A stretch of DNA of 64,000 nucleotides from Tachypleus tridentatus. Taxonomy: Eukaryota; Arthropoda; Merostomata; Xiphosura; Limulidae. The notes under the pieces were generated by a model. The model saw only the letters and a program-made list of their open reading frames with translations, searched no databases and was not told the origin of the DNA. A program made the position numbers and the translations under genes. Of this stretch, positions 1 to 54,360 are shown piece after piece. Numbering within the stretch: position 1 is the stretch's first letter; every line of letters starts with the position of its first letter. The stretch spans positions 10,277,857 to 10,341,856 of the forward strand of contig NC_134834.1 of assembly GCF_004210375.1 (NCBI RefSeq). Reading direction: 5' to 3'.

Positions 1-3000
1 GAATTATAAACTAGAAAAGGGTAAGAAAAAAGAATACAAAATGGAAGGTTGAATTTTAAACCAGGAAAGGGTAAGAAAAAAAAGAATACAAAATGGAAGG
101 TTGAATTATAAACTAGGAAAGGGTTAGAAAAAGAATACAAAATGGTAGGTTGAATTATAAACTAGGAAAGGGTTAGAAAAAAGAATACAAAATGGTAGGT
201 TGAATTATAAACTAGGAAAGGGTTAGAAAAAAGAATACAAAATGGTAGGTTGAATTATAAACTGGGAAAGGGTAAGAAAAAAGAATACAAAATGGTAGGT
301 TGAATTATAAACTAGGAAAGGGTAAGAAAAAAGAATACAAAATGGAAGGTTGAATTATAAACCAGGAAAGGGTTAGAAAAAGAATACAAAATGGTAGGTT
401 GAATTATAAACCAGGAAAGGGTTAGAAAAAAGAATACAAAATGGTAGGTTGAATTATAAACTAGGAAAGGGTTAGAAAAAAGAATACAAAATGGTAGGTT
501 GAATTATAAACTGGGAAAGGGTTAGAAAAAAGAATACAAAATGGTAGGTTGAATTATAAACTGGGAAAGGGTTAGAGAAAAGAATACAAAATGGAAGGTT
601 GAATTATAAACTAGGAAAGGGTTATAAAAAAGAATACAAAATGGTAGGTTGAATTATAAACCAGGAAAGGGTTAGAAAAAAAGAATACAAAATGGTAGGT
701 TGAATTATAAACTAGGAAAGGGTTAGAAAAAGAATACAAAATGGGAGGTTGAATTATAAACCGGGAAAGGGTAAGAAAAAAGAATACAAAATGGAAGGTT
801 GAATTATAAACTGGGAAAGGGTAAGGAAAAAAGAATACAAAATGGAGGTTGAATTATAAACCTAGGAAAGGGTAAGAAAAAAGAATACAAAATGGACGGT
901 TGAATTATAAACTGGGAAAGGGTTAGAAAAAAGAATACAAAATGGAAGGTTGAATTATAAACTAGGAAAGGGTTAGAAAAAAGAATACAAAATGGAAGGT
1001 TGAATTATAAACTGGGAAAGGGTAAGAAAAACAATACAAAATGGTAGGTTGAATTATAAACTGGGAAAGGGTAAGAAAAAAGAATACAAAATGGTAGGTT
1101 TAATTATAAACTAGGAAAGGGTAAGAAAAAAGAATACAAAATGGAAGGTTGAATTATAAACTAGGAAAGGGTAAGAAAAAAGAATACAAAATGGTAGGTT
1201 GAATTATAAACTAGAAAAGGGTAAGAAAAAAGAATACAAAATGGAAGGTTGAATTATAAACTAGAAAAGGGTTAGAAAAAAGAATACAAAATGGAAGGTT
1301 GAATTATAAACTAGAAAAGGGTTAGAAAAAAGAATACAAAATGGTAGGTTGAATTATAAACTGGGAAAGGGTAAGAAAAAAGAATACAAAATGGAAGGTT
1401 GAATTATAAACTAGAAAAGGGTAAGAAAAAAGAATACAAAATGGAAGGTTGAATTATAAACTAGGAAAGGGTTAGAAAAAAGAATACAAAATGGTAGGTT
1501 GAATTATAAACTAGGAAAGGGTTAGAGAAAAAGAATACAAAATGGTAGGTTGAATTATAAACCAGGAAAGGGTTAGAAAAAAAAGAATACAAAATGGTAG
1601 GTTGAATTATAAACCGGGAAAGGGTAAGAAAAAAAGAATACAAAATGGTAGGTTGAATTATAAACCAGGAAAGGGTAAGAAAAAAAGAATACAAAATGGA
1701 AGGTTGAATTATAAACCAGGAAAGGGTTAGAAAAAAAGAATACAAAATGGTAGGTTGAATTATAAACCAGGAAAGGGTTAGAAAAAGAATACAAAATGGA
1801 AGGTTGAATTATAAACTAGGAAAGGGTTAGAAAAAAGAATACAAAATGGTAGGTTGAATTATAAACTGGGAAAGGGTTAGAAAAAAGAATACAAAATGGT
1901 AGGTTGAATTATAAACTAGGAAAGGGTTAGAAAAAAGAATACAAAATGGAAGGTTGAATTATAAACTAGGAAAGGGTTATAAAAAAGAATACAAAATGGT
2001 AGGTTGAATTATAAACTAGGAAAGGGTTAGAAAAAAGAATACAAAATGGTAGGTTGAATTATAAACTAGGAAAGGGTTAGAAAAAAGAATACAAAATGGA
2101 AGGTTGAATTATAAACTGGGAAAGGGTAAGAAAAAAGAATACAAAATGGAAGGTTGAATTATAAACTAGGGAAAGGGTAAGAAAAAAAAAGAATACAAAA
2201 TGGAAGGTTGAATTATAAACCGGGAAAGGGTAAGAAAAAAGAATACAAAATGGAAGGTTGAATTATAAACTAGGAAAGGGTTAGAAAAAAGAATACAAAA
2301 TGGAAGGTTGAATTATAAACTAGGAAAGGGTTAGAAAAAAGAATACAAAATGGAAGGTTGAATTATAAACTGGGAAAGGGTAAGAAAAAAGAATACAAAA
2401 TGGTAGGTTGAATTATAAACTGGGAAAGGGTAAGAAAAAAAAGAATACAAAATGGTAGGTTGAATTATAAACTAGGAAAGGGTAAGAAAAGAATACAAAA
2501 TGGAAGGTTGAATTATAAACTAGGAAAGGGTAAGTAAGAAAAGAATACAAAATGGTAGGTTGAATTATAAACCAGAAAGGGTAAGAAAAAAAGAATACAA
2601 AATGGAAGGTTGAATTATAAACCAGGAAAAGGGTTAGAAAAGAATACAAAATGGAAGGTTGAATTATAAACTAGGAAAGCGTTAGAAAAAAGAATACAAA
2701 ATGGTAGGTTGAATTATAAACTGGGAAAGGGTAAGAAAAAAGAATACAAAATGGTAGGTTGAATTATAAACTAGGAAAGGGTTAGAAAAAGAATACAAAA
2801 TGGTAGGTTGAATTATAAACTAGGGAAAGGGTAAGAAAAAAAAGAATACAAAATGGTAGGTTGAATTATAAACCGGAAAGGGTAAGAAAAAAAGAATACA
2901 AAATGGAAGGTTGAATTATAAACCAGAAAGGGTAAGAAAAAAAGAATACAAAATGGAAGGTTGAATTATAAACCAGGAAAGGGTAAGAAAAAAGAATACA

Positions 3001-6000
3001 AAATGGTAGGTTGAATTATAAACTAGGAAAGGGTTAGAAAAAAGAATACAAAATGGAAGGTTGAATTATAAACTAGAAAAGGGTAAGAAAAAAGAATACA
3101 AAATGGAAGGTTGAATTATAAACTAGGAAAGGGTAAGAAAAAAGAATACAAAATGGTAGGTTGAATTATAAACTGGGAAAGGGTAAGAAAAAAGAATACA
3201 AAATGGAAGGTTGAATTATAAACCAGGAAAGGGTTAGAAAAAAGAATACAAAATGGTAGGTTGAATTATAAACCAGGAAAGGGTTAGAAAAAAAAGAATA
3301 CAAAATGGTAGGTTGAATTATAAACCAGGAAAGGGTTAGAAAAAAAGAATACAAAATGGTAGGTTGAATTATAAACTGGGAAAGGGTAAGAAAAAAGAAT
3401 ACAAAATGGTAGGTTGAATTATAAACTAGGAAAGGGTAAGAAAAAAGAATACAAAATGGAAGGTTGAATTATAAACTAGGAAAGGGTTAGAAAAAAGAAT
3501 ACAAAATGGTAGGTTGAATTATAAACTAGGAAAGGGTTAGAAAAAAGAATACAAAATGGTAGGTTGAATTATAAACTAGGAAAGGGTTAGAAAAAAGAAT
3601 ACAAAATGGTAGGTTGAATTATAAACTAGGAAAGGGTTAGAAAAAAGAATACAAAATGGAAGGTTGAATTATAAACTAGGAAAGGGTTATAAAAAAGAAT
3701 ACAAAATGGTAGGTTGAATTATAAACTAGGAAAGGGTTAAAAAAAGAATACAAAATGGTAGGTTGAATTATAAACTAGGAAAGGGTTAGAAAAAAGAATA
3801 CAAAATGGTAGGTTGAATTATAAACTGGGAAAGGGTAAGAAAAAAGAATACAAAATGGAAGGTTGAATTATAAACTGGGAAAGGGTAAGAAAAAAGAATA
3901 CAAAATGGTAGGTTGAATTATAAACTGGGAAAGGGTAAGAAAAAAGAATACAAAATGGAAGGTTGAATTATAAACTGGGAAAGGGTAAGAAAAAAGAATA
4001 CAAAATGGTAGGTTGAATTATAAACTAGGAAAGGGTTAGAAAAAAGAATACAAAATGGTAGGTTGAATTATAAACTAGAAAAGGGTTAGAAAAAAGAATA
4101 CAAAATGGTAGGTTGAATTATAAACTAGGAAAGGGTTAGAAAAAAAAATACAAAATGGAAGGTTGAATTATAAACTAGAAAAGGGTTAGAAAAAAGAATA
4201 CAAAATGGTAGGTTGAATTATAAACTAGAAAAGTGTAAGAAAAAAGAATACAAAATGGTAGGTTGAATTATAAACTAGAAAAGGGTAAGAAAAAAGAATA
4301 CAAAATGGAAGGTTGAATTATAAACTAGAAAAGGGTTAGAAAAAAGAATACAAAATGGAAGGTTGAATTATAAACTAGAAAAGGGTTAGAAAAAAGAATA
4401 CAAAATGGTAGGTTGAATTATAAACTGGGAAAGGGTAAGAAAAAAGAATACAAAATGGTAGGTAGAATTATAAACTAGGAAAGGGTTAGAAAAAAGAATA
4501 CAAAATGGTAGGTTGAATTATAAACTAGGAAAGGGTTAGAAAAAAGAATACAAAATGGTAGGTTGAATTATAAACTGGTAAAGGGTAAGAAAAAAGAATA
4601 CAAAATGGTAGGTTGAATTATAAACTGGTAAAGGGTAAGAAAAGAGAATACAAAATGGAAGGTTGAATTATAAACCAGGAAAGGGTAAGAAAAAAAAGAA
4701 TACAAAATGGAAGGTTGAATTATAAACTAGGAAAGGGTAAGAAAAAAGAATACAAAATGGTAGGTTGAATTATAAACTAGGAAAGCGTTAGAAAAAAAGA
4801 ATACAAAATGGAAGGTTGAATTATAAACCAGAAAGGGTAAGAAAAAAGAATACAAAATGGAAGGTTGAATTATAAACTAGGAAAGGTAAGAAAAAAAGAA
4901 TACAAAATGGTAGGTTGAATTATAAACCAGGAAAGGGTTAAAAAAAAGAATACAAAATGGTAGGTTGAATTATAAACTAGGAAAGGGTTAGAAAAAAAGA
5001 ATACAAAATGGTAGGTTGAATTATAAACTAGGAAAGGGTTAGAAAAAAAGAATACAAAATGGTAGGTTGAATTATAAACTAGGGAAGGGTAAGAAAAAAA
5101 GAATACAAAATGGTAGGTTGAATTATAAACTAGGAAAGGGTAAGAAAAAAAGAATACAAAATGGAAGGTTGAATTATAAACCAGGAAAGGGTTAGAAAAA
5201 AGAATACAAAATGGTAGGTTGAATTATAAACCAGGAAAGGGTTAGAAAAAAAAGAATACAAAATGGTAGGTTGAATTATAAACTAGGAAAGGGTTAGAAA
5301 AAAAGAATACAAAATGGTAGGTTGAATTATAAACTGGGAAAGGGTTAGAAAAAAGAATACAAAATGGTAGGTTGAATTATAAACCAGGAAAGGGTTAAAA
5401 AAAAAGAATACAAAATGGTAGGTTGAATTATAAACCAGGAAAGGGTTAAAAAAGAATACAAAATGGAAGGTTGAATTATAAACTAGGAAAGGGTTAGAAA
5501 AAAGAATACAAAATGGTAGGTTGAATTATAAACCAGGAAAGGGTTAGAAAAAAAGAATACAAAATGGTAGGTTGAATTATAAACCAGGAAAGGGTTAGAA
5601 AAAAAGAATACAAAATGGTAGGTTGAATTATAAACCGGGAAAGGGTTAGAAAAAGAATACAAAATGGAAGGTTGAATTATAAACCAGGAAAGGGTTAAAA
5701 AAAAGAATACAAAATGGTAGGTTGAATTATAAACCAGGAAAGGGTTAGAAAAAAGAATACAAAATGGTAGGTTGAATTATAAACCAGGAAAGGGTTAGAA
5801 AAAAAGAATACAAAATGGTAGGTTGAATTATAAACCAGGAAAGGGTTAGAAAAAAAGAATACAAAATGGAAGGTTGAATTATAAACCGGGAAAGGGTAAG
5901 AAAAAAAAAGAATACAAAATGGAAGGTTGAATTATAAACTGGGGAAAGGGTAAGAAAAAGAATACAAAATGGAAGGTTGAATTATAAACTGGGAAAGGGT

Positions 6001-9000
6001 AAGAAAAAAGAATACAAAAAGGAGGTTTAATTATAAACCAGGAAAGGGTTAGGAAAAAAGAATACAAAATGGAAGGTTGAATTATAAACTAGGAAAGGGT
6101 TAGAAAAAAGAATACAAAATGGAAGGTTGAATTATAAACTGGGAAAGGGTAAGAAAAAAGAATACAAAATGGTAGGTTGAATTATAAACTAGGAAAGGGT
6201 AAGAAAAAAGAATACAAAATGGAAGGTTGAATTATAAACTGGGAAAGGGTTAGAAAAAATAATACAAAATGGAAGGTTGAATTATAAACTGGGAAAGGGT
6301 TAGAAAAAATAATACAAAATGGAAGGTTGAATTATAAACTGGGAAAGGGTTAGAAAAAAGAATACAAAATGGAAGGTTGAATTATAAACTAGGAAAGGGT
6401 TAGAAAAAAGAATACAAAATGGTAGGTTGAATTATAAACTAGAAAAGGGTAAGAAAAAAGAATACAAAATGGTAGGTTGAATTATAAACTAGAAAAGGGT
6501 TAGAAAAAAGAATACAAAATGGTAGGTTGAATTATAAACTAGGAAAGGGTTAGAAAAAAGAATACAAAATGGAAGGTTGAATTATAAACTAGAAAAGGGT
6601 TAGAAAAAAGAATACAAAATGGTAGGTTGAATTATAAACTAGAAAAGGGTAAGAAAAAAGAATACAAAATGGAAGGTTGAATTATAAACTAGGAAAGGGT
6701 TAGAAAAAAGAATACAAAATGGTAGGTTGAATTATAAACTGGGAAAGGGTAAGAAAAAAGAATACAAAATGGAAGGTTGAATTATAAACTGGGAAAGGGT
6801 AAGAAAAAAGAATACAAAATGGTAGGTTGAATTATAAACTAGAAAAGGGTTAGAAAAAAGAATACAAAATGGAAGGTTGAATTATAAACTAGGAAAGTTT
6901 ACGAAAAAAGAATACAAAATGGAAGGTTGAATTATAAACTGGGAAAGGGTAAGAAAAAAGAATACAAAATGGAAGGTTGAATTATAAACTGGGAAAGGGT
7001 TAGAAAAGAATACAAAATGGTAGGTTGAATTATAAACCAGGAAAGCGTTAGAAAAAAAAAGAATACAAAATGGTAGGTTGAATTATAAACTGGGAAAGGG
7101 TTAGAAAAAAGAATACAAAATGGTAGGTTGAATTATAAACCAGGAAAAGGTTAGAAAAAAAGAATACAAAATGGAAGGTTGAATTATAAACTAGGAAAGG
7201 GTTACAAAAAAGAATACAAAATGGTAGGTTGAATTATAAACTGGGAAAGGGTTAGAAAAAGAATACAAAATGGTAGGTTGAATTATAAACTGGGAAAGGG
7301 TTAGAAAAAAGAATACAAAATGGTAGGTTGAATTATAAACTAGGAAAGGGTTATAAAAAAAAGAATACAAAATGGTAGGTTGAATTATAAACTAGGAAAG
7401 GGTTAGAAAAAGAATACAAAATGGAAGGTTGAATTATAAACTAGGAAAGGGTTAGAAAAAAGAATACAAAATGGTAGGTTGAATTATAAACTAGGAAAGG
7501 GTTATAAAAAAGAATACAAAATGGAAGGTTGAATTATAAACTAGGAAAGGGTTAGAAAAAAGAATACAAAATGGTAGGTTGAATTATAAACTAGGAAAGG
7601 GTTAGAAAAAAGAATACAAAATGGAAGGTTGAATTATAAACTGGGAAAGGGTAAGAAAAAAGAATACAAAATGGAAGGTTGAATTATAAACTAGGAAAGG
7701 GTAAGAAAAAAGAATACAAAATGGAAGGTTGAATTATAAACTAGGAAAGGGTTAGAAAAAAGAAAACAAAATGGAAGGTTGAATTATAAACTGGGAAAGG
7801 GTAAGAAAAAGAAAACAAAATGGAAGGTTGAATTATAAACTGGGAAAGGGTAAGAAAAAAGAATACAAAATGGTAGGTTGAATTATAAACTGGGAAAGGG
7901 TAAGAAAAAAGAATACAAAATGGAGGGTTGAATTATAAACTGGGAAAGGGTAAGAAAAAAGAATACAAAATGGTAGGTTGAATTATAAAGTAGGAAAAGG
8001 GTAGAGAAAAGAATACAAAATGGAAGGTTGAATTATAAACTGGGAAAGGGTTAGAAAGAAGAATACAAAATGGAAGGTTTAATTATAAACTAGGAAAGGG
8101 TTAGAAAAAACAATTCAAAATGGAAGGTTGAATTATAAACTGGGAAAGGGTTAGAAAAAAGAATACAAAATGGTAGGTTGAATTATAAACCGGGAAAGGT
8201 AGGAAAAAAGAATACAAAATGGAAGGTGAATTATAAACCAGGAAAGGGTTAGAAAAAAAGAATACAAAATGGAAGGTTGAATTATAAACTGGGAAAGGGT
8301 AAGAAAAAAAGAATACAAAATGGTAGGTTGAATTATAAACTGGGGAAAGGGTTAGAAAAAAAGAATACAAAATGGAAGGTTGAATTATAAACCAGGAAAA
8401 GTAAGAAAAAAAGAATACAAAATGGAAGGTTGAATTATAAACTAGGAAAGGGTTAGAAAAAAGAATACAAAATGGTAGGTTGAATTATAAACTAGGAAAG
8501 GGTAAGAAAAAAGAATACAAAATGGAAGGTTGAATTATAAACTGGGAAAGGGTAAGAAAAAAGAATACAAAATGGAAGGTTGAATTATAAACTGGGAAAG
8601 GGTTAGAAAAAAGAATACAAAATGGAAGGTTGAATTATAAACTGGGAAAGGGTAAGAAAAAAGAATACAAAATGGTAGGTTGAATTATAAACTGGGAAAG
8701 GGTAGGAAAAAAGAATACAAAATGGAATGTTGAATTATAAACTAGGAAAAAGTAAGAAAAAAGAATACAAAATGGAAGGTTGAATTATAAACTAGGAAAG
8801 GGTTAGAAAAAAGAATACAAAATGGTAGGTTGAATTATAAACTAGGAAAGGGTAAGAAAAAAGAATACAAAATGGAAGGTTGAATTATAAACTGGGAAAG
8901 GGTAAGAAAAAAGAATACAAAATGGAAGGTTGAATTATAAACTGGGAAAGGGTAAGAAAAAAGAATACAAAATGGAAGGTTGAATTATAAACTGGGAAAG

Positions 9001-9838
9001 GGTAAGAAAAAAGAATACAAAATGGTAGGTTGAATTATAAACTGGGAAAGGGTAGGAAAAAAGAATACAAAATGGAATGTTGAATTATAAACCAGGAAAA
9101 AGAAAAAAAGAATACAAAATGGAAGGTTGAATTATAAACTAGGAAAGGGTTAAAAAAAGAATACAAAATGGTAGGTTGAATTATAAACTAGGAAAGGGTA
9201 AGAAAAAAGAATACAAAATGGAAGGTTGAATTATAAACTGGGAAAGGGTAAGAAAAAAGAATACAAAATGGAAGGTTGAATTATAAACTGGGAAAGGGTA
9301 AGAAAAAAGAATACAAAATGGAAGGTTGAATTATAAACTGGGAAAGGGTAAGAAAAAAGAATACAAAATGGTAGGTTGAATTATAAACTGGGAAAGTGTA
9401 AGAAAAAAGAATACAAAATGGTAGGTTGAATTATAAACCGGGAAAGGGTTAGAAAAAACAATACAAAATGGAAGGTTGAATTATAAACTGGGAAAGGGTT
9501 AGAAAAAAGAATACAAAATGGTAGGTAGAATTATAAACTGGGAAAGGGTAAGAAAAAAGAATACAAAATGGTAGGTTGAATTATAAACTAGGAAAGGGTT
9601 AGAAAAAAGAATACAAAATGGTAGGTTGAATTATAAACTGGGAAAGGGTAAGAAAAAAGAATACAAAATGGTAGGTTGAATTATAAACTCGGAAAGGGTT
9701 AGAAAAAAGAATACAAAATGGTAGGTTGAATTATAAACTAGGAAAGGGTTAGAAAAAAGAATACAAAATGGTAGGTTGAATTATAAACTGGGAAAGGGTT
9801 AGAAAAAAGAATACAAAATGGTAGGTTGAATTATAAAC
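1..9838. repeat. 50 bp minisatellite array, about 197 copies
   Basis: A purine-rich plus-strand unit of about 50 bp repeats from the window edge to about 9838, so the true left end is not seen. Each unit holds the blocks GAATTATAAAC, GGAAAGGGT, GAATACAAAATGG and AGGTT. Copies differ at a few fixed sites: CTAGG/CTGGG/CCAGG/CCGGG, GTTAG/GTAAG, TGGTAGG/TGGAAGG, and an A-run of variable length. At 8411-9420 seven-unit blocks of about 350 bp are themselves repeated three times. The minus strand shows short open frames with a periodic Phe/Leu/Ser/Tyr pattern, which are by-products. The first in-window CCNB1IP1 exon follows at 10409 and its RING exons are absent, so the array most likely sits in an intron of that gene. 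Confidence 0.97.
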
Positions 9839-10408
9839 TTTAAGAAAAGAGAAAGAAGGTAAAAAGAAAGATTTCATGATGAACTGGGATATATAAAAAG
9901 AAACAAAAGAAATTCAGAATTTCAAATTAGGAAGTGATTGAGAAGGTTATAAAAATGATTTATTATGAAATGAGTAAATAACAAATATTGTAATATCCAA
10001 ATCTAGTGACATTTTTATTATTAAAGTGTGTTATTTTTACATTTTGTGTTAATAGCAAGGTACTCGGTGCATTCAGGTCACTGTAGATTTTAACATTTTT
10101 GTGTATGTATGTGTGACTATTAATGTATGACCATGTTTACTACAGTGATCTACACAGTTTGTTGTATAGAATTAGCTTTATCTATTTACGGTTGATTTGA
10201 GGAGTTACTGTACCTTTGTTCAGAAGAAACATTTATTTTATTTACATATTCAAGTTTAGGAATCTGAACTCTTGGAAGATACCTTGACAAAAGCTAATAA
10301 ATTGGTTTCTGTTATTTTTGTAGATTGGGTGAGGTTTTAAAGAAGTTTGGTGTTTTTAAGTCACATGAAACGTTTCATTCTGGATTTTTAAAGAAATCTT
10401 TTTCTCAG
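9839..10408 (+). other. Intron sequence upstream of first visible CCNB1IP1 exon
   Basis: AT-rich single-copy sequence between the 50 bp array and the first recognisable exon. An open frame reads into the exon from 10325, but its first 28 residues do not resemble the CCNB1IP1 family, whereas the match starts exactly after TTTCTCAG at 10401-10408. It is therefore read as intron. No other feature is seen. Confidence 0.7.
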
Positions 10409-22135: not shown

Positions 22136-22306
22136 TTAAAGTGCAGTTCTTTCATCATAAACAACAATTGCCTCATTATCCACCAGCGAGTCGGTGTCTT
22201 TGTGAATGAAAGGTAAGATGAGAAAGGAGTTCTGACTCTTGGTCACTGCTATGGCTGCTGCACTGTCGTTTCTCATGCGGTTTTTCCTTTTCTTGCTGAA
22301 ATTTAC
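22136..22306 (-). CDS. Membrane protein gene, exon 8 (C-terminal tail, PDZ-type motif)
   Basis: The acceptor TTTCAG is followed by GTAAATTTC. The stop TAA is at 22138-22136. Encodes VNFSKKRKNRMRNDSAAAIA and onward to VVYDERTAL. The last four residues, RTAL, fit the class I PDZ ligand pattern (S/T-x-hydrophobic). Confidence 0.85.
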   Translation of the reverse strand, partial: VNFSKKRKNRMRNDSAAAIAVTKSQNSFLILPFIHKDTDSLVDNEAIVVYDERTAL

Positions 22307-25300
22307 CTGAAACCAAAGAATTATTTGTTTTGTTTTCCTCGCAGAAAATTTCAGAGAATTTGACACGTGTATAAGAATTAGATATAAAAAGATCGGTAAA
22401 CATTCCAAACAAGTTGTCTGTATCAAACAAAAAAATACTGTCAAGAAATTTGTCTCTTTAAATACGTTTCATCTGTTACTATCTATAAATTTTTTCCATC
22501 TAAAACATCGGTCGTTGGCTCTAGAAATTCACCAACACATATTTTTACAAATGTTGATTTATGACATACATAACGTGCTGGATAGTGGAGTCGAAGTCTG
22601 TTTGTTTTTTGGCTATCTGTACTCGGTCCACCACTGGGGAATCAAACCTTGGATTTTAGAACTGTGAATCCCGTAACTTAGTGTTGACCTGGAGTTAAAA
22701 CAGCTCATTCAATAAGCTGACCTAGTTACTTCTGTCCTTTGTTGTTGGTATACTTTATGAAGTAACATCAGTGTGTGTGTGCATGTAATGTTTAAATTGT
22801 ATCGTTGAAACATACTTTACAATAATCTACTGTTTTGGGTTTCAGGCCTGTCAGTAAATAAAATATGCTGTCCCTGTAAAATGGTCTATTCTGAAATTAT
22901 TCTAGTTAAGAATCATCTTTTGTAAATAAACATTTACTATAGTAAAGTGGTAACTTACTTTGGCATACAACTCATTAAGGTCATCTTCAGTTGAAAGTGG
23001 CCGAAGACGAGAATGTCCCCATGCTGGAAGGCTTCTAGTTTTCATTATAGTGTCAGGGGTCATTATGAACTGGTGAGTTAATCCATTTAGTTCATCTAAT
23101 CCTGTAAAAGTTCATTGCAAAACTTTTTCTGTACATGGTATATTTAGTTTTTGTTTTACGTAAACAAACTGATAAGTTAATGGAAATTATATTCTGCCTT
23201 ATTCTCTAAGGAGATTAAGTTTTATTGAGAATTTATTTCTGAACCAAAAACTCAGGACAGTTGCAAAGACTCCACTGGAGGTTTTAAAGTTAGGTAGCAC
23301 CGCTTAAAGAAATGTAGCTATGTATGTAAAAACAGTGAATACATTTATGAAATACATGTTATATTTTTCCTCTTGGAATGGATGGTTTACATTTAAATAT
23401 GGTAGGAGTTTGCTTGTTTCTAAGGGTTATTAACTCAGCTGTATAGGAAGTTTTAAACTAGGACTAGACAGTGGGGAGGACCAAGAAAACTAAATGTAAA
23501 AAGGATGCAGAGAAAAGTCTAACATAAGAAATAAGTAAAGTAGTAGTTACAAGGACAAGACTAGTTGTTACCGTTGTGAAGTAGCAGTTACAAGGACAGG
23601 ACTAGTTGTTACCGTTGTGAAGTAGCAGTTACAAGGACAGGACTAGTTGTTACCGTTGTGAAGTAGCAGTTACAAGGACAGGACTAGTTGTTACCGTTGT
23701 GAAGTAGCAGTTACAAGGACAGGACTAGTTGTTACCGTTGTGAAGTAGCAGTTACAAGGACAGGACTAGTTGTTACCATTGTGAAGTAGCAGTTACAAGG
23801 ACAGGACTAGTTGTTACCGTTGTGAAGTAGCAGTTACAAGGACAGGACTAGTTGTTACCGTTGTGAAGTAGCAGTTACAAGGACAGGACTAGTTGTTACC
23901 ATTGTGAAGTAGCAGTTACAAGGACAGGACTAGTTGTTACCGTTGTGAAGTAGCAGTTACAAGGACAGGACTAGTTGTTACCGTTGTAAAGTAGCAGTTA
24001 CAAGGACAGGACTAGTTGTTACCGTTGTAAAGTAGCAGTTACAAGGACAGGACTAGTTGTTACCGTTGTAAAGTAGCAGTTACAAGGACAGGACTAGTTG
24101 TTACCGTTGTAATGTCAGAAATATAAGAAATGAAACAGATGACTTTTAAACACTGGTATGAATGAAAGATTCTGATGTAACAGGAATAACTGAAATATAG
24201 TCAAATATAGATGATTTTAATGACAAAGTACAGGGTTACAGGTTATTTAATAAGGACAAAGTATGATGGTTTAGGTTTCTATTAGTGGATATAAAGTACA
24301 GGGTTACAGGTTATTTAATAAGGACAAAGTATGATGGTTTATGTTTAGGTTTCTATTAGTGGATATAAAGGCTTTTAGTGGTAATTTGTTTCAGATCACC
24401 AAATGATATTGATGGAATTCGTGGGAAACTTTACAATAACATTAAGATTTCAACTGTTAATGAAGTCATAATTATGGGTGATTTTAATTCTGGACACATT
24501 TGTTGGGAAATGTTAAAGACAAATCATGAATGAGAAAGGTTTTTGGAAACTGTTCAAGATGGGTTTCTTCATGAATCAGTCAAGGAACCTACTGGAAATA
24601 ATGTTTTAGATTTATTGTTCATTTTAAATATAAGAATGATCGAAAAGGGTAGAAGTGAAAAACATCTGGATGCAAGTGATTATTGTTGTAGTAGGTTCAT
24701 TGTTTTGCTACATATGGAGATAAGGAATAATATTTTGTTTACAAGTTTAAACAAAAACACATTTTGAAGAGATCCAACAAGAATTATATATTGTGAATTG
24801 GGCAGCTGAGTTATTTTGAGACACTAATCAGATTATTATGAATTTTTCTGAGTACATTAAGAGTAAACAAATCATTATAATTGGAGTAGGACTTTTGAGG
24901 AATGGTAAAGGATGGCTAGTATCTGATGGTAAGGATGACTAGTATCTGACGGTTGTAAGATTATTGGGTTGTTCAATTTTCCTTTTTCTTCAGTGTTTAC
25001 TAACAAAGATTTAAGCAATATTCCATATCTTGAACAGTTTATAAATGGAAACAAGATCAAACAAAATGACTGTATTAATTCTAAGCTGGTTAATAATAAA
25101 AACAATAAGGATCTTCAGCCAGATGACATTTTCCCAAAGGTTTGGAAGGAGGTTAAGGATTGGATATGTGAGTCACTTGCTAATACTTGTTTGGTCAGTC
25201 CTTGTATAGTGGTCAGGTATCAGAGGACTGGAAGTTAGCTTATGTCACTCCTGTTTTCGAGGGAAGTGATAAAAATTGTCCCAATAATTATAGACCCCTT

Positions 25301-28300
25301 CAACTTACATAGTTGTGGGAAAAGTTTTGGAAAGTTAGTTAACAAAGTTTAGAATGTTATTTGTTCACTGAGGGAAACTCTTGCCTTACAAATCTTTTGA
25401 TGTTCTTTAAAAAGGTTACTGTTTAAGTAGATGAGAACAAGGATGTAGATTTGTTGTATTTAGATTTTCAGAAAGCATTTGAAAAGGTTCCACATAAAAA
25501 GCTTGTAAAATAATTATCTCTATTGGTATGCACGATAAGTTAGCAATAGAAGAGTGGCTGGATGGAAGACAGCAGAGGGTTGTTACAAATAGAGTTCAGT
25601 CAAACTGGATTCATGTCATCAGTGGGATACCTCACAGTTCAGTCTTAGAACTTTTGGTCATTTTTATTGACATCAATGACACAGATGAAGAAATTGTCAA
25701 TAAGCTACTTAAATATTCTGATGACATTAAGATCTTGGTTGTTGTTGGCTGAGACAATTTCATTTTCTAACAGGGTGGTTGGCTTTAGAATGGGTTGCTT
25801 TAAGATGTTGTAGAAGCAGTAAATTTAATAAAAAGCTTGATGTGGATGATAAGGGCTGGCTTTAAGAATTTTTTAAACTCAGTTTATAGGATGAAACAGC
25901 CAAGGTGAACCAATAGATCCCATTATGTTGATTACCTATAAACGTGGCACTGACATAGTTAATATCTTTAGTGAAAGTACTATATTTTCACAAATTACAT
26001 TACCTTCATCTAGCAGTAAACAATATATTGTTAAACATTTATCAACCTTTAAGGAAACATAAACATATAAACAAATAAAAAGGTGCATGTTTACATCCCA
26101 ACCAGGAGTTTTAATTTTACTTACCATCGTAAGATGAGCATTCACTTAGTGGAGGCATGTCAACCAGGAGTTGTAATGTTACTTACCATCGTAAGATGAG
26201 CATTCACTTAGTGGAGGCATGTCAACCAGGAGTTGTAATGTTACTTACCATCGTAAGATGAGCATTCACTTAGTGGAGGCATGTCAACCAGGAGTTGTAA
26301 TGTTACTTACCATCGTAAGATGAGCATTCACTTAGTGGAGGCATGTCAACCAGGAGTTTTAATGTTACTTACCATCGTAAGATGAGCATTCACTTAGTGG
26401 AGGCATGTCAACCAGGAGTTTTAATGTTACTTACCATCGTAAGATGAGCATTCACTTAGTGGAGGCATGTCAACCAGGAGTTGTAATGTTACTTACCATC
26501 GTAAGATGAGCATTCACTTAGTGGAGGCATGTCAACCAGCAGTTTTAATGTTACTTACCATCGTAAGATGAGCATTCACTTAGTGGAGGCATGTCAACCA
26601 GGAGTTGTAATGTTACTTACCATCGTAAGATGAGCATTCACTTAGTGGAGGCATGTCAACCAGGAGTTGTAATGTTACTTACCATCGTAAGATGAGCATT
26701 CACTTAGTGGAGGCATGTCAACCAGGAGTTTTAATGTTACTTACCATCGTAAGATGAGCATTCACTTAGTGGAGGCATGTCAACCAGGAGTTTTAATGTT
26801 ACTTACCATCGTAAGATGAGCATTCACTTAGTGGAGGCATGTCAACCAGGAGTTGTAATGTTACTTACCATCGTAAGATGAGCATTCACTTAGTGGAGGC
26901 ATGTCAACCAGGAGTTGTAATGTTACTTACCATCGTAAGATGAGCATTCACTTAGTGGAGGCATGTCAACCAGGAGTTGTAATGTTACTTACCATCGTAA
27001 GATGAGCATTCACTTAGTGGAGGCATGTCTTTTAGGCAGTAATAATTTCGAACAGTATTCTCGGGAATACTGGACAGGATCACCTGACTAATATCAACAC
27101 CCACATCTGGAAGAGCTGATTCTGAGGGATCACAGCCTCTGACTTGAGAGTCTAGTAAAGCATCGTGAGAAAGACGGACTGGTTGACTCAACGGTCTGGG
27201 TTTCATACTAGCATTATTGTGTGTTTGTTTAACCTGAAAATTCCAAAGTGTGTTACTGTAGACTTTAACATTCTTTCATTACCACATAAATTTGTGATAC
27301 ATGATGGAGCCCTTCAAAAATTTGGCTTTCTTTTAATAACTGCAAAACGTATTACATCCTGAAAGTATTAATTTAAATTTTATTCTTAGTTTAAAGCATG
27401 ACTTTATATAAATTCTCAACACTTAGTGGGCAGTTTACGTTCTGTACCAACACCTAAGTTAACAAAACCTCATGTCAAAGTTGGGTGAGACTATTTCACA
27501 GCTGTTTTGGAGTTTGCAAGAAAGTAAAAACAAAACAAAAGTGGTACAACTCACCCTCTTATCATCTTCAACAGACACCAGTTGAGAATGTGGAAGAGGC
27601 CTGTTGTTATTATCAACTTCTTTCTTTACTCCGACAAACACCATGGACTCACTAAATCAGAAAATAATGAAACTTAACCTCCCTTCATCTGGTTATTTTT
27701 ACATATCTTGCTTGCAGTGCAAATATAATTCAGTTTTAAGGTTTTTAACGATAGAAAAGCTACAAACGATGGTCTCAAACATTTAATTTCTTTCATAATA
27801 CTCCAATGTCATTTGCTTGTTTGTTTTTGAATTTCGCACAAAGCTACTCCAGGGCTACATGTGTTAGCCGTCCCTAATTTAGTAATGTAAGACTAGAGAG
27901 AAGGCAGCTAGTCATCACCACCCACTGCCAACTCTTGGGCTACTCTTTTTACCAACGAATAGTGAGATTGACCGTCACATTATAACGCCCCCACGGCTGA
28001 AAGGACGGGCATACGAACCCGCGACCCTCAGATTACGAGTCGCACGCTTAGCCAGGCCGGGCCTGAATGCCATCTTTTCCCATATCAAATCTTATCATTT
28101 ACCATATGATATTTAAATAGACAGTGGATTCTTTAACAATGATATTTAAATAGACAGTGGATTCTTTAACAATGATATTTGAAATAGACAGTGGATTCTT
28201 TAACAATGATATTTGAATAGACAGTGGATTCTTTAACAATGATATTTGAAATAATGACACGTGATACAATTGTACTTACTAAGCTGGAGATCTTCTAATG

Positions 28301-31300
28301 CTGCGAAGTTTAATAATAGCACATACATAGATATATATATATATATACTACAAAGAAACTGATTTATATCAACTTTCAACCAATGACTGCACTGACTTTA
28401 TTTATTGTAACTGCCAGGTAGCTATTACAATGAATGTGTAACCAAAAACAATTAATTTTCATGCAATGAGTTTAAATCTGTGAGAAAAATACAATTTACA
28501 ACTTGCCTCTGAATAATTCCAGATCCCGTTTGTTTAACAATTTTGCCATCTTCCAATTGGTCTTTGCAACCTAAAATTAGAAACGAGCAGTAAAGTTACC
28601 CCGTAAAGAGTTGTACATGTTAAAGTTTATAAGCAAAATTCTTGCTTTTGTCTTCCTCGTTATAACAGTCACTTTTTAACAAAACAAGATATATTACTAA
28701 TATATTTTGTCCATTTATACAAAATATTACTAAGAGATGGCACCACTGACAAAATTTATATACGTGTTTAACGTCTTGTAACTTTCATTTAAAGAATTAT
28801 TTTATCTTTTCTTTTTTTCTTTTGTCACAGTTTATTCTGATACAAGATCACAGACTTATTATTATCCAAGGCAGTTAGATACTATAGTAGATGTATTACT
28901 GTATTCCTTCTCGTCCACTGTCTTTTGACAACAGCAATGCCAGGCAAGTACGGCAACTGCCAATATGAGCATTAATCCCAAGGCACCTGAAAATACAGAA
29001 GAGAAATAACACTGTATTACTACAAACAGCAACAACGAGTCAAAACTAAGTTGACTTACTTTAAACACCACTATTATGTCGACGTTCTCTGATCATCTGT
29101 TACTTTAGCTGATTAAACTGTGATGAGTCGTACATAAAGATCAAAATTGAATTATAAATGTGCCAAGAAAAAACAGTTCATAAACCTTTTTTTTTCTATC
29201 GTACAAGGTTTTTTATTTATGCAGCTATGCCTTTTAATTCTACCACGAGATGTCGCTGCTTTACAATTCTTTCTCTTTTTTTTTTTTTTTTCTTATTGCG
29301 GTTAATGACGCTAAAAAATGGACATTATCTGTGGCCTACACGTCGAAGGTATCAAAACTCGATTTTCAGCTTAAAAAACTCGTTTAGACTCCCAAACCAC
29401 CCAGTTACATCAACTTGACAGTTGAAATGTTACAATGGCGGGCTAATAATTAAGGACTATTTTAACCATCCATACTACCCAGTTACGTAAACCTAAAAGT
29501 TGCAATGTTATAATGACGGGCTAATAATTAAGGACTATCTTAACCTTCCATACTACCCAGTTACGTGATCCTAACAGTTGCAATGTTATAATGACGGGCT
29601 AATAATTAAGGACTATCTTAACCTTCCATACTACCCAGTTACGTGATCCTAACAGTTGTAATGTTATAATGACGGGCTAATAATTAAGGACTATCTTAAC
29701 CTTCCATACTACCCAGTTACGTGATCCTAACAGTTGCAATGTTATAATGACGGGCTAATAATTAAGGACTATCTTAACCTTCCATACTACCCAGTTACGT
29801 GATCCTAACAGTTGTAATGTTATAATGACGGGCTAATAATTAAGGACTATCTTAACCTTCCATACTACCCAGTTACGTGAACCTAACAGTTGTAATGTTA
29901 CATTGACGGGCTAATAATTAAGGACTATCTTAACCTTCCATACTACCCAGTTACGTGAACCTAACAGTTGTAATGTTACATTGACGGGCTAATAATTAAG
30001 GACTATCTTAACCTTCCATACTACCCAGTTACATCAACCTGACAGTTGTGATGATATAATGACGGGCTAATAATTAAGGACTATCTTAACCTTCCACACC
30101 ACCCAGTTACATAAACCTAACAGTTGTAATGTTACAATGACGGGCTAGTAATTAAGGACTATCTTAACCTTCCACACCACCCAGTTACGTGATCTTAACA
30201 ATTGTAATGTTACATTGACGGGCTAATAATTAAGGACTATCTTAACCTTCCATACTACCCAGTTACGTGAACCTAACAGTTGTAATGTTACATGACGGGC
30301 TAATAATTAAGGACTATCTTAACCTTCCATACTACCCAGTTACGTGATCTTAACAATTGTAATGTTACATTGACGGGCTAATAATTAAGGACTATCTTAA
30401 CCTTCCATACTACCCAGTTACGTGAACCTAACAGTTGTAATGTTACATGACGGGCTAATAATTAAGGACTATCTTAACCTTCCATACTACCCAGTTACAT
30501 CAACCTGACGGTTGTAATGTTACAATGACGGGCAAATAATTAAGGACTATTTTAACCTTCCATACTACCCAGTTACGTGATCCTAACAGTTGCAATGTTA
30601 TAATGACGGGCTAATAATTAAGGACTATCTTAACCTTCCATACTACCCAGTTACGTGATCCTAACAGTTGTAATGTTATAATGACGGGCTAATAATTAAG
30701 GACTATCTTAACCTTCCCACACCACCCAGTTACGTAAACCTAACAGTTGTAATGTTACAATGACGGGGTAATAATTAAGGACTATCTTAACCTTCCACAC
30801 CACCCTGTTATGTGAACCTGACAGTTGTAATGTTATAAGGACGGGCTAATAATTAAGGACTATCTTAACCTTCCATACTACCCAGTTACATCAACCTGAC
30901 AGTTGTATTGTTATATGACGGGCTAATAATTAAGGACTATCTTAGCCTTCCACACCACCCAGTTACGTGAACCTGACAGTTGTAATGTTACAATGACGGG
31001 CTAATAATTAAGGACTATCTTAGCCTTCCACACCACCCAGTTACGTGAACCTGACAGTTGTAATGTTACAATGACGGGCTAATAATTAAGGACTATCTTA
31101 ACCTTCCACACCACCCTGTTACGTGAACCTGACAGTTGTAATGTTACAATGACGGGCTAATAATTAAGGACTATCTTAACCTTCCATACTACCCAGTTAC
31201 ATCAACCTGACGGTTGTAATGTTACAATGACGGGCAAATAATTAAGGACTATCTTAACCTTCCATACTACCCAGTTACATCAACCTGACTGTTGTAATGT

Positions 31301-34300
31301 TACAATGACGGGCTAATAATTAAGGACTATCTTAACCTTCCACACCACCCAGTTACGTGAACCTGACAGTTGTAATGTTACAAGGACGGGCTAATAATTA
31401 AGGACTATCTTAACCTTTCACACCACCCTGTTAAGTGAACCTGACAGTTGTAATGTTATAAGGACGGGCTAATAATTAAGGACTATCTTAACCTTCCATA
31501 CTACCCAGTTACATCAACCTGACAGTTGTAATGTTACAATGACGGGCAAATAATTAAGGACTATCTTAACCTTCCATACTACCCAGTTACATCAACCTGA
31601 CTGTTGTAATGTTACAATGACGAGCTAATAATTAAGGACTATCTTAACCTTCCACACCACCCAGTTACGTGAACCTGACAGTTGTAATGTTACAAGGACG
31701 GGCTAATAATTAAGGACTATCTTAACCTTTCACACCACCCTGTTAAGTGAACCTGACAGTTGTAATGTTATAAGGACGGGCTAATAATTAAGGACTATCT
31801 TAACCTTCCATACTACCCAGTTACATCAACCTGACAGTTGTAATGTTATATGACGGGCTAATAATTAAGGACTATCTTAGCCTTCCACACCACCCTGTTA
31901 TGTGAACCTGACTGTTGTAATGTTACAATGACGGGCTAATAATTAAGGACTATCTTAACCTTCCACACCACCCAGTTACGTGAACCTGACAGTTGTAATG
32001 TTACAATGACGGGCTAATAATTAAGGACTAATTTAACATTTCACACTATCCAGATACATCACTATGACAGTTGTAATGTTACAATGACGGGCTAATAATT
32101 AAGGACTAATTTAACATTTCACACTATCCAGATACATCACTATGACAGTTGTAATGTTACAATGACGGGCTAATAATTAAGGACTAATTTAACATTTCAC
32201 ACTATCCAGATACATCACTCTGACAGTTGTAATGTTACAGTAAAATGTTTTGATACATAAAAAGTAACTCGGTACAATATTAATGCTGTAATCTACAGGA
32301 TGACCCGTAAGTCCCTACCCATCCATATGTTATTATGTTATATTCAATTACGCATGTGTTATAAACTTGTTTTTCTTCTCAGAGAAATATGGCCGATGTA
32401 AGCCCATTTACACTTGAAGAACATGGCGTCGCATAATATTATGCAGCGAGAATGAGTGACAGCACACAGATACACTGGATACATAAGATATGTGGATGGG
32501 TAGGGACTTACGGGCCACCCTGTATGTTAAAACCTTTCGACGATATGGGCTGATGTTATTCAATGTTTTATCCTTACCTATGGCTGCACCAACAAGAATG
32601 GTCAAATCTCTATCCAGATTCCATTTGGTCAGGAAGCCCCGGGGTGTGCCGGTTACGTTCTCCGCAGTATGGTCCATGTAAGCCAACATGGTTACGCTTT
32701 GTTGTAGCACCACGTGGCGGTAACCACTATGATTCAAGGTGTCGTTATCTGTTAAAATAGGTGTAAAAAAAAAACACTATCAAATACTGTGTGTTTCCTT
32801 ATAACAAAGCCACATCAGGCTATCTGCTGAGCCCACTGAGGGGAATCGAACCCCTGATTTTAGCGTTGTAAATGCGTAGACATACCGCTGTACTAGCGGG
32901 GGGCCCATCAAATAGTAAATGTTAAGTTACAAGACTAAAGTACCATTACTGTTTGAAGAATACAAGGGGGCGTTATAATGTTCTAATCTATTAAAATAAT
33001 AGCCAAAGAGTTGGCGGAGGGTGCCTTCCCTCTAGTCTGTCAATGCTAAATTAAAGGCGGCTAACGCAGACAGATTTCATAACAGACCTATCGAAATGTA
33101 TAGGGCTCGGCATGACCAGGTGATTTAGGCACTCGACTCGTAAACCGTAGATCGTGGGTTCGAATCCCCGTCACGCCAAACATGCTCGCCCTTTCAGCCG
33201 TGGGGGCGTTATTATGTGACGGTCAATCTCACTATTCGTTGGTAAAAGAGTAGCCCAAAAGTTGACGGTGGGTGATGATGACTAGCTGCTTTCCCTCTAG
33301 TCTTACACAACTAAATTAGGGACGGCTAGCGCAGATAGCCCTCGTGTAGATTTGCGCGAAATTCAAAAAAGCTAAACCAAATGTATAGTGTGACTTTTGC
33401 TCCCGTTATTTTGTTTTTCTTACAGTTATCATAAATTGGAAGGTATCATACGGAGTGTGACTGTCCTTTATGTACCATGAAAGTAGACTCCCAAGCATGG
33501 TTTTGTGAACGTTTTATTCTATACCTAAACCAAGAAGAACATTTTCGTTAGTACACGTTTCGGGCAATGAGCTTCCTGTCAACAAATGGGCAAACAACGA
33601 TTTACGATTACATTTTAGGGTGAACACACTGTGTCTTTCGACAGAATATTAGTCTGAACAACTTTGTCAGTTTATTACAATACCTAGTATAACGTGTTTA
33701 ACACTCTCATGAACCAGTTTGCTAACACAGCAGTGAGAACATGCCGTTCCTAGTTTTAAACTGATGAACTAGAGTGAAGGCAGATAGCCAAGAGCACCCA
33801 CCGCCAACTATCGAAGATCTCTTGACTGATACGACAACAAATAAACAAAAATAGCACATAGAATAAAAAATGACGATTCCAAACAGCTCACTAGACAATC
33901 ATATTGCATACACACACTGATCCAAAGAACTGGATTGACTGATCATATTGCATACACACACTGATCCAAAGAACTGGATTGACTGAACATTTGTATAATT
34001 ATTTCTAGCTATTTTTAGAACACTCGTTATTGAATTATTTCAACAACCATCTACTAGTCCTAATATAACTTTTAATATACGACGTTTAAAATATTGATTA
34101 CTACGTGTACAGGAACAAAGTTCTGATAGAATCCGTTTCCCAGTAATTCACATAACACACGAACGTAGTAAGACGCGACTTCACATAACTGACAACGACT
34201 GTGTACTTGGTGTACTTCCGCAGAGTCCCCGAAATGGTTCTCCTTCAAGAGTAAAGTGAACCAAAATTAAGAGTAACAAATGTTCTGGTCTTACAGGTCA

Positions 34301-51453: not shown

Positions 51454-53471
51454 TAGGGTGCGTCAAAAAACAAAACGTTGTGACACTCAGTCGCTCGCTT
51501 ATAATTTAATTCCATTCAATGAAAAAAATATGCTAGCGTAAAAATCAATCCAATACATTAATATTTAGGGGTTGCGCAATGCGCACAAAATAACAACGTG
51601 CTTCCGGAAACAAACGAAAAATTGGCATTAGTGAAAGGCTAGCTTCGGCTTTAGACAGAACCCAGATCAGTGACCGAAAAGCCGCGCAAATTTTGCTTCC
51701 TTTTGCAGCTCATATTGGACATAATATCGAGGATCTTGCCATTAGCCCCAGTTCCATAAGGAGGAAACGAATTACTAACCGTACTCTTCTAGCAGCTGAA
51801 TTGAAGGAAAGTTTTTCTCCGAACGTTCCTTTGACATTACATTGGGATGGTAAGCTGATGCCTGACTTGGTTGGCAGAGAGAAGATCGAACGTTTGGCAA
51901 TTTTAGTTTCGGGTGAAGGTGTAGAGAAGATTCTTTCAGTGCCCAAGATTGATAGTGGGGATGCAAATTCAGTAGCTTCTGAGATCGGATCAGTTTTAGT
52001 AGAATGGAATGTAAAAGACAGAATTAAATCGCTTTGCTTTGACACCACGGCGACCAATACAGGATCCAAATCTGGCGTCTGTCTGAGGATTGAAATGTTA
52101 CTTGAACGTGAGCTCTTGCACCTTGTCTGCAGACATCACATTTTGGAGATTCTTCTGAGCGCTGTATTCTCTACTCTCGTGGTAGAGACATCAAAAGTCC
52201 AGATATTACTTTGTTTTTAAACTTTAGAGATTGTTGGCCTGAAATTAATAAAACTAAGTACATAACAGCAGTAGAAGCAATGCCACCCGAATACAGCCTT
52301 GGAAGGATGATATTATTCAATTTTGTCAGAATCTCCTTCAATCTCATCAACCACGGGACGATTATAAAGAGCTCTTGGAATTAGCTGTCATTTTTCTTGG
52401 ATCTCTTCCACACGGACGTTCTTCAGTTTCTTTCCGTACTTCTGGTGCTGTACATCGTGCACGATGGATGGCTCGAGCAACATATTCTCTAAAAATTTGG
52501 ATGTTCCAAGAGGAGTTTGGTAGACTGCAACCACGGCCTGCTTCATCTCGTGTTTCATTTGACGCACATTTCTGCAGCAAACTTGGCGATTTGTGTGTCT
52601 TTATAACTAAACATTACTTGCTCTCATGGTTTACAGCTAAGGATGCTTCCGTGGCAGCTCGAAGGGACCTTACACTACTCAAGAAACTTGCATTGCATGA
52701 AAATCATATGATTAAGGAAGTTGGTACAAAGGCAATGAATCGGCATTTATCTGAGGTTGCAGTTGGGCTTGCGCTCTTTGATGACGGTGTAACGAATAGC
52801 GACAAATTTAAGATGGTCTCAAATATGAATACCGTGAAAGGATCTCCTGGGCCAACTCCACGTTTAACAGTTGATGCTGCAAGCAATGCTGTTTCCAGAA
52901 AGCTTCCAGATTTTTTTACCTCGGCAACGAAGAAAATTTTCTACCATCTAGATATTAGTAGCGCATTTTTATCATTACCACCGAAAGAGTGGAGCGCCTC
53001 CGAAGAGTACAAACAAAGAAAGGACAGAGTAAAGAAACTTTTTGTGACAAATGACGCAGCTGAAAGAGAAGTAGCCTTAATTCAACAGTTTACATCAAAG
53101 GGCCGCACCAAGAACAAAGATCAATTTCAGTATTTGATTCAGGTGGCAAAAGAACATCGGCGAACATAATGCGAAGGGGGCAGGCAAGATAAAACTTCAA
53201 TGAAATAAATTTTTCTTTCAAGTTTTTATATTTTTGCTAATTGTATAATCAATAAATATTAAATAATTTCTTTAAATAATTTAATTACCATTAACAATGT
53301 AATGTAGGGTAAATTTAAGGAAAATAGTGAACTTTGCGAGGGATGCACGACCCCTAAATACTTCGCGATTGAAATGAAACTTTGTCTATGTTCTTTTCTC
53401 ATGCAGTGGCACAACTGAGCAAAAAAATTGGAACATTTTAATTTTTATCCTTTATCCGCTGACGCACCCTA
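51454..53471 (+). mobile_element. hAT-like DNA transposon nested in the mariner
   Basis: Perfect 12 bp terminal inverted repeats (TAGGGTGCGTCA at 51454, TGACGCACCCTA ending 53471). Target duplication of 8 bp with one mismatch: GTGTTTAT at 51446-51453 and GTGTTCAT at 53472-53479. The right copy continues the mariner frame, so it is the original target. An 8 bp duplication fits the hAT superfamily. The coding region occupies 51591-53169. The element is 2018 bp. Confidence 0.85.
51591..53169 (+). pseudogene. hAT-like transposase, frameshifted
   Basis: The first frame, about 51591-52220, includes SERLASALDRTQISDRKAAQ, LTLHWDGKLMPDLVGREKIE, LCFDTTATNTGSKSGVC and HLVCRHHILEILL. The last two resemble the acidic core motif and the C-x-x-H motif of hAT transposases. 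The second frame, about 52290-53169, includes GRSSVSFRTSGAVHRARWMA and the C-terminus ending KEHRRT then TAA. Between them is an intermediate frame (KSPDITLFLNFRDCWPEINK), so at least two frame shifts separate the parts. Similar proteins, as I recall, occur as uncharacterised repeats in many invertebrates. No BED finger is seen. The exact family is uncertain. Confidence 0.75.
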
Positions 53472-53479
53472 GTGTTCAT

Positions 53480-54360
53480 GGTTCGGAGTCTCTCAATGAA
53501 AGAAAATGTCGAAGGTGGTTTCAGAAGTTCAGATCAGGTGACTACAGTTTAAGTGATGAACCACGTTCAGGTTGTCCTGTTAAGTTTAATGATGGCTTGC
53601 TGTTTGCTACACTTGATGAAGATTGTGTTGTAACAGTTGAAGAACTAGTACAGAAGTTTAATTCAACCCATTCACCAGTTCACTGTCATCTGCAACAGCT
53701 TAGTAAGGCGTCAAAACTTGGAAAATGGGTCCCCCGTGATTTGACAGAAGCCAACCTCAGAGCAAGAGTGGACATTTATACTTCTCTGCATTCTCGTGAA
53801 CTTCACTCACCCGTTTTGGACAGGTTAGTAACTGGAGATGAAAAATGAATATATTATCAAAATGTTAAGAGCTGCAGACAATGGTTCAGTGCAGGTAAAC
53901 TGGCTAAAGCACAGTCCGAAATGGACCTCCACCCTAGGAAATTCTTGTTAAGCGTTCGGTATGATCCACTTTGAGTTGCTGCCACTCAATATAACAATTA
54001 CAGACCTCCATTGTCAACAGTTACAGCGCTTGAATGTTGCACTGAAAGAAAAGAGGCCTGCTTTGATCAATCGTAAAGGTGTTGTGTTACACCAGGATGA
54101 TGCACGGTCCCATACAGCAAGAACCACATCTGTAAAGACTGAAGATCTAGACTGGGAAAAACTTCCACATCTTCATTATTCTGCAGACCTTGTCCCATCT
54201 GATTATCATCTATTCTGAAGTTTACAGAACTATCTTGATGGTAAACAGCTTGGAACACATGAAGATGTCAAAACTACCATCTCTACAGTTTTTTCCTCCA
54301 AACCACAAGAATGTCCCATAAGTGACAGTCAGAAGTTTGTGAACCGCTGACAGGAAGTAA
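53480..54360 (+). pseudogene. Mariner transposase, main piece
   Basis: Frame fragments cover the rest of the DNA-binding region and the catalytic domain. The first catalytic aspartate is in VTGDEK (stop TGA directly after, where the family has W), the second in HQDDARSH, and the last lies near SADLVPSDYHLF (stop after F). At least two frame shifts occur between 53850 and 54350. Confidence 0.9.

Follow-up and report, generated by a model that had tools for sequence, protein, structure and literature searches.

A 62-bp minisatellite with fifteen predicted 5' splice sites at a coding exon end of Tachypleus tridentatus

The minisatellite of human IFI6 (6-16/G1P3) is said to provide multiple splice donor sites, as Turri, Cuin and Porter reportedly described in 1995 (NAR 23:1854). 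Its repeat unit has a length of about 12 bp and is in frame. According to a citing paper, two downstream repeat units of IFI6 serve as donors and lead to three mRNA species (PMC4526556). A 38-bp intronic VNTR of TERT, VNTR6-1, is described as a splicing switch (PMC11830802), and for intron 4 of DOK7 the downstream one of two competing donors is stated to be a possible main site (PMC5585400).

Here, a stretch of 64,000 nucleotides of the horseshoe crab T. tridentatus (the window) was analysed, in which a tandem array covers the end of a coding exon together with its 5' splice site. In this genome, the Pfam family Coagulin (PF02035), the clotting protein of horseshoe crabs, had 19 matches, each above the family cut-off, compared to none in 14 control genomes. 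In the open-licence literature, none of the matches listed described this locus or a horseshoe crab minisatellite that had captured a donor.

The array and the exon end within it

TRF placed a tandem array of 62-bp units at 26099–27029 of the window with 15.0 copies and 98% matches. An earlier note on this DNA had drawn the array from 26097 to 27029; the end was correct, while TRF gives a start 2 bp later. Fifteen near-identical units of 62 bp are far beyond chance. On the minus strand, each unit starts with the final 37 nt of exon 6 (GACATGCCTCCACTAAGTGAATGCTCATCTTACGATG), after which come GTAAGT and 19 bases of the intron; this agrees with the composition proposed before. In transcription order, unit 1 is the end of exon 6 itself, the remaining 14 units are intronic and the last one continues into unique intron sequence. 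The motif GTAAGT is undamaged in all 15 units, as expected from the approximately 15 identical donors of the earlier note, and every unit bears a near-consensus donor (8 of 9 consensus bases). Predicted U1 pairing was equal for all of them with −10.7 kcal/mol compared to −14.4 kcal/mol for the full consensus, but the measure is crude, as five GT sites in a neighbouring 78-bp array also scored −10.7 kcal/mol.

The gene on the minus strand encodes a putative single-pass membrane protein with a transmembrane segment and a piece of the ectodomain (Table 1). Its C terminus RTAL resembles a class I PDZ ligand. The protein tail had no match in Pfam or PDB sequences, the ectodomain piece had none in Pfam, and a scan for a few cadherin-like motifs found nothing; a protocadherin had been suspected, but this identity is not claimed. 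The intron between exons 6 and 7 has a length of 3.9 kb. Besides the 62-bp array, it contains reverse-transcriptase-like fragments with breaks on the plus strand (24400–25750, by eye).

Table 1. Features of the gene and the array. Coordinates are those of the window unless a scaffold is named; a slash marks an exon–intron boundary.
Feature	Position	Strand	Details
Open frame with putative ectodomain exon	32411..32776	minus	conserved in C2 paralog (RHVVLQQSVTMLAY...)
Stretch starting with putative transmembrane exon	28865..28986	minus	GALGLMLILAVAVLAWHCCC after TATTTTCAG, exon start at 28986, exon 3' end not fixed within the stretch; C2 paralog GFLGLMFILAFSVLAWRCCC
Upstream exon, 64 nt	28507..28570	minus	end TTCAGAG/GCAAGT, apparent GC-AG intron; boundaries by eye
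Upstream exon, 97 nt	27555..27651	minus	TTTAG/TGAGTCC...GATAAGAGG/GTGAGT; boundaries by eye
Exon 6, coding, 241 nt	26993..27233	minus	repeat unit 1 starts with its last 37 nt; length and end conserved in C2 paralog
In-frame stop TAA	26985..26987	minus	exon positions 247–249, met if donor 1 is skipped
62-bp x 15 tandem array	26099..27029	minus	TRF and unit-by-unit reading
15 possible exon ends	26993 down to 26125	minus	62-nt steps
14 downstream donor copies	26125..26931	minus	
Downstream last exonic bases	26931, 26869, 26807, 26745, 26683, 26621, 26559	minus	
Downstream last exonic bases, continued	26497, 26435, 26373, 26311, 26249, 26187, 26125	minus	
Exon 7, 143 nt	22959..23101	minus	acceptor TTTTACAG/GATTAGATG
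Exon 8, 171 nt including stop	22136..22306	minus	C terminus ...VVYDERTAL
Tail-peptide matches	C10:10.15 Mb; C2:147.82 Mb and C2:122.00 Mb		second copy (C10); paralog (C2)
Weaker tail-peptide matches	C1:141.33 Mb, C2:143.51 Mb		

A search of the genome with the tail peptide gave 15 matches, namely the window exons, a second copy of the locus, a paralog on scaffold C2 and weaker tails. Exons 6, 7 and 8 of the C2 paralog have identical lengths to those of the window gene (241, 143 and 171 nt). Over 184 codons, dN was 0.18 and pS 0.74 with saturated synonymous sites, and the protein can therefore be considered as conserved. In the paralog, exon 6 ends with TCTTACGATG/GTGAGA, of which TCTTACGATG is identical in the window. 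Both genes also agree in the phase of the intron at this junction (GAT G/GA, continued by TTA in exon 7, in the window and GAT G/AA in the paralog). Judged by this conservation, the exon 6 end at 26993 is genuine. The acceptor named in the earlier note at 23101 likewise fits, with exon 7 starting there after TTTTACAG.

The paralog has no such array. Its exon-end motif occurs once in each of two assembled copies, and TRF found no array of this kind in 3.2 kb of each copy, including 1,505 intron bases past the donor. The idea of the earlier note that the first donor alone is needed holds; donor 1 closes the 241-nt exon in the window. At the window donor, CUUAC of the exon and GUAAG can form a 5-bp hairpin with a GAUG loop (26986–27000, −4.0 kcal/mol), and the paralog donor has a 6-bp version of it (−6.3 kcal/mol). 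The hairpin was not pressed as a signal because its z values against dinucleotide shuffles were only −1.35 and −1.61, which is not significant.

Tandemly duplicated exons would have an acceptor, an exon and a donor in each unit. Here, every unit contains two AGs, for which the 20 preceding bases include 11 and 12 pyrimidines, respectively (pyrimidine count alone). A strong donor in each unit and the AG behind 12 of 20 pyrimidines (CCTCCACTAAG) could point to recursive splicing, in which the units would be spliced stepwise or as small exons. This is hardly credible, as the unit reads TTACGATG/GTAAGT without the YAG of a ratchet site directly ahead of the junction and only 42 nt lie between a donor and the next such AG. 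This would be very short for an animal intron.

A second assembled copy with twelve units

A second copy of the locus lies 149 kb away on the same scaffold (C10). It has 12 units with 12 donors, all with an undamaged GTAAGT, and its exons 6–8 are one synonymous base apart from those of the window. Mean unit divergence was 1.3% and 1.8% within the two copies and 1.6% between them. A rare unit with CTGCTGG and a last unit with private bases are common to both, and the array is therefore older than the separation of the two copies. Thus, the recent expansion proposed in the earlier note is in agreement with the paralog that has no array, but not with an array that predates the split of the C10 copies. 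Being arranged head-to-tail in units within the range of 10–100 bp, with high identity and unequal copy number, the array has the properties of a VNTR minisatellite. The fact that 27 of 27 donors are intact would fit selection on the donors; still, it is uninformative in this respect because the units of the two copies differ from one another at just 5 of 62 positions, and selection was dropped as an argument that is weak either way.

The contig structure suggests that the second copy is the other haplotype. Its homology to the window stops exactly at a 500-N gap (10176658), and the next contig, when reversed, starts matching within 1 base of its own gap. From 10326681 up to the limit of the region compared, six pieces of the reversed contig are colinear with the window contig. 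Single-copy divergence between the copies was 0.81% (113 of 13,866 aligned bases), taking the best alignment piece for each of 11 chosen blocks with 17,123 bases in total and leaving unaligned parts uncounted. This is at the level of the heterozygosity given for a related species, the mangrove horseshoe crab (0.8%, PMC7210998). Furthermore, the assembly analysed is larger with 2.167 Gb than the 1.72 and 1.94 Gb stated for other T. tridentatus assemblies (PMC7815833).

These points speak against a true segmental duplicate, i.e. a paralog, which would leave a length polymorphism of the array unshown. A duplicate would fit the presence of both copies on one scaffold, the partial inversion of the second copy, the approximately 2.7 kb of the window contig without a match between the two matching contigs and the lower similarity of the longer aligned pieces including arrays (only 93.4–97.0% alike). 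Nevertheless, with homology ending at one gap and resuming inverted at another, we regard a duplicate as unlikely. On the haplotype reading, the 15 and 12 units are probably VNTR alleles.

Gaps of 500 N were found at C10:10176658, 10239183 and 10270830. Two of the contigs between them look like the second haplotype of the window region, with one placed in inverted orientation, and the assembly seems to retain haplotypes. The C2 paralog was also assembled twice, with 25.8 Mb between its copies on one scaffold. Three pairs of 3.2-kb C2 loci were 98.3–99.8% alike, and the two paralog copies are perhaps haplotypes again.

Neighbouring arrays and the frequency of donor motifs

The share of sequence masked by TRF was 46% in contig piece X, 25% in Y, 50% in Z and 41% in W, the piece that holds the window. 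Arrays were paired by unit between the two C10 copies if at least one copy had at least 3 TRF copies. Eight out of nine paired arrays were unequal in length, including the 62-bp donor array. The paired units had 62 (12.5 kb), 74, 41, 68, 62 (donor array), 78, 29, 36 and 51 bp, and only the 36-bp array had an equal copy number. The pairing left out arrays with fewer than 3 copies in both C10 copies (e.g. 67, 44, 20 and 84 bp, which agree), a 70-bp array at 14.1 kb for which no partner row was seen, a compound 35-bp array at 14.7–17.4 kb, a 50-bp array bordering the contig end as well as arrays outside the window. The 50-bp array comprises approx. 16 kb from window positions 1–9839 on to C10:10271330 and touches the end of the contig.

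As a rough estimate from 16 arrays and an assumed number of 14 exon boundaries, 0.19 arrays per window would have their founding unit over an exon boundary. A single array of this kind is therefore not very surprising in the window and, by extrapolation, many exon-boundary arrays would be expected genome-wide.

Enrichment of donors in tandem arrays was assessed near the locus and in the whole genome. Among 49 array rows near the locus (period of at least 25, at least 3 copies and at least 85% matches; both locus copies included), two carried a donor with at least 8 of 9 consensus bases, and both were copies of the 62-bp array. When the units were base-shuffled, a mean of 1.62 rows carried a donor and 47.5% of 200 shuffles reached two. 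Genome-wide, the pattern of three GGTAAGT with 40–70 nt between them gave 22,592 matches, which are matches and not arrays and are dominated by big arrays. This was 2.6 times the number for its own reversal TGAATGG (8,842), and an enrichment was first suggested by this control. However, further 7-mers of the same composition gave 19,947 (GTAGATG), 35,974 (AGTGGTA) and 15,678 triples (reversal of AGTGGTA), and the reading was dropped because the four 7-mers span a wider range. Triples of the 9-base consensus donor exceeded those of the reversal by 1.8 times (3,160 vs 1,771), an excess without clear meaning as the single motifs differ, too (309,781 GGTAAGT vs 254,123 reversed). Counted by eye in the matches listed for scaffold C1, the first 6.61 Mb had 15 distinct arrays with the donor motif and four with its reversal, and the first 6.64 Mb had 13 with AGTGGTA. 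GTAGATG was left out of this count, its listed matches all lying before 0.7 Mb.

The triple counts also bear on the suggestion that the array acts as a U1 sponge, i.e. that its 15 strong U1 sites within 930 nt recruit U1 and keep the 3.9-kb intron from being cleaved and polyadenylated too early. The equal predicted pairing of all 15 sites (−10.7 kcal/mol) would be suitable for such a function. Nothing tested points to it specifically, though; the paralog does without an array and the donor-motif triples stay within the range of the four same-composition 7-mers. A sponge thus appears very improbable.

Other repeats with splice-site motifs were observed apart from the locus. A 57-bp array on the minus strand at C10:10364615–10364894 (86759–87038 in extended window coordinates), in the region of a neighbouring gene's FCH and SH3 domain exons, starts inside the 5' splice site of the exon end AAAAAGG/GTAAGTTTAAC. 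Its later units shown read AATAAGTTTAAC without GT; it is donor-anchored, but the donor was not copied. At C1:1762331, C1:1081101 and C1:2893768, tandem units look like a chain of complete, very short introns, for example CTCTCTTTCAG/G/GTAAGT (65 bp) and TTCTTGACAG/GTAAGT (48 bp). In the window, Pfam further matched the HTH domain of a Mos1-type transposase (HTH_48) to an open frame at 53378–53848.

Splicing of the exon and comparison with known systems

We consider it probable that the array is a near-neutral VNTR minisatellite that captured a donor and that the spliceosome mainly acts on the first donor. It would have started as a tandem duplication of a 62-bp segment that spans the exon 6 end together with its 5' splice site; minisatellite arrays are very abundant in this genome. 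Exon definition and transcription order would favour donor 1 and lead to the 241-nt exon, while the 14 spare donors would be removed with the intron up to the acceptor. After gain or loss of whole units, the exon body would still be followed by an intact exon end with its donor. Array length could thus change without a change of the protein, and this would account for an array that is tolerated close to neutrality, perhaps at a low cost of mis-splicing. Given the fact that the downstream of two donors can be the main site, as in DOK7, some leakage to later donors is possible.

Translation beyond donor 1 reads ...SECSSYDGK and stops. The earlier note had expected Lys and a stop past any donor, which is correct for reading through donor 1 but not for the later units, as these are in other frames because 62 is not a multiple of 3 and translation ends before them. 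Any later donor would therefore result in the identical Lys-stop, a reading frame that no longer includes exons 7 and 8 and the same truncated protein, whichever donor is chosen. An exon with donors 2–15 would measure 303–1109 nt by calculation. Nonsense-mediated decay (NMD) generally applies to a stop more than 50–55 nt before a junction, and the computed distance is 54 nt for donor 2 and up to 860 nt for donor 15. With two or more extra units (donors 3 and up), the mis-spliced mRNA would probably be degraded by NMD.

This common stop could also make the array a splicing decoy or poison extension, with a share of later donors that rises with the number of units, so that the VNTR would tune the output of full-length protein. 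The predicted U1 pairing of the 15 donors by the same crude measure, −10.7 vs −8.1 kcal/mol for the paralog donor, would be in favour of it, as would the downstream units that act as donors in human IFI6 (PMC4526556) and the shift of TERT splicing ascribed to an intronic VNTR (PMC11830802). Since the paralog keeps a conserved protein without an array and the length varies as in neighbouring arrays, a decoy seems rather unlikely. A length-dependent rheostat, in which identical donors compete and allele length sets the proportion of full-length vs tail-less or NMD-targeted product, is doubtful.

Of the three options left by the earlier note, i.e. a decoy, a U1 sponge and a neutral minisatellite, the last one is favoured because the array varies in length as its neighbours do (8 of 9 paired arrays), its motif triples are within the range of other 7-mers and the paralog has no array.

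With 15 regularly spaced natural copies of one donor before one acceptor, and 12 copies on what is probably a second allele, the locus is a natural test of the choice between identical splice sites. RNA data would directly reveal which of these the spliceosome prefers and whether the preference follows distance or order. The locus also illustrates how a coding exon end can join a repeat that turns over. Through unequal exchange or conversion, mutations of non-coding copies could thus enter the coding sequence; the AAT variant that unit 9 has in the copy with 12 units, for instance, would lead to an Asp-to-Asn exchange if moved into the exon.

Compared with the ordinary minisatellite VNTRs of the same window, the array has a similar unit size and a similar difference in length between the two assembled copies, but among the 49 array rows it is, in its two copies, the only one with a donor of at least 8 of 9 consensus bases. 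In DOK7 intron 4, neighbouring donors compete for U1 as they might do here; however, as far as described there, these are two unequal and regulated sites only 11 nt apart, conserved in mammals and without a repeat array (PMC5585400). TERT VNTR6-1 is likewise an intronic VNTR, with consequences for alternative splicing and NMD, but its description refers to G-quadruplexes approx. 3.5 kb from the exon and not to a duplicated donor (PMC11830802). The closest likeness is to IFI6, as minisatellite units supply extra 5' splice sites in both. The horseshoe crab unit differs from it with its 62 bp, of which 37 nt are coding, by being out of frame and bringing a stop, and its extra donors are candidate splice sites. 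By analogy, the horseshoe crab array can be considered to share the architecture of IFI6, which is its published precedent.
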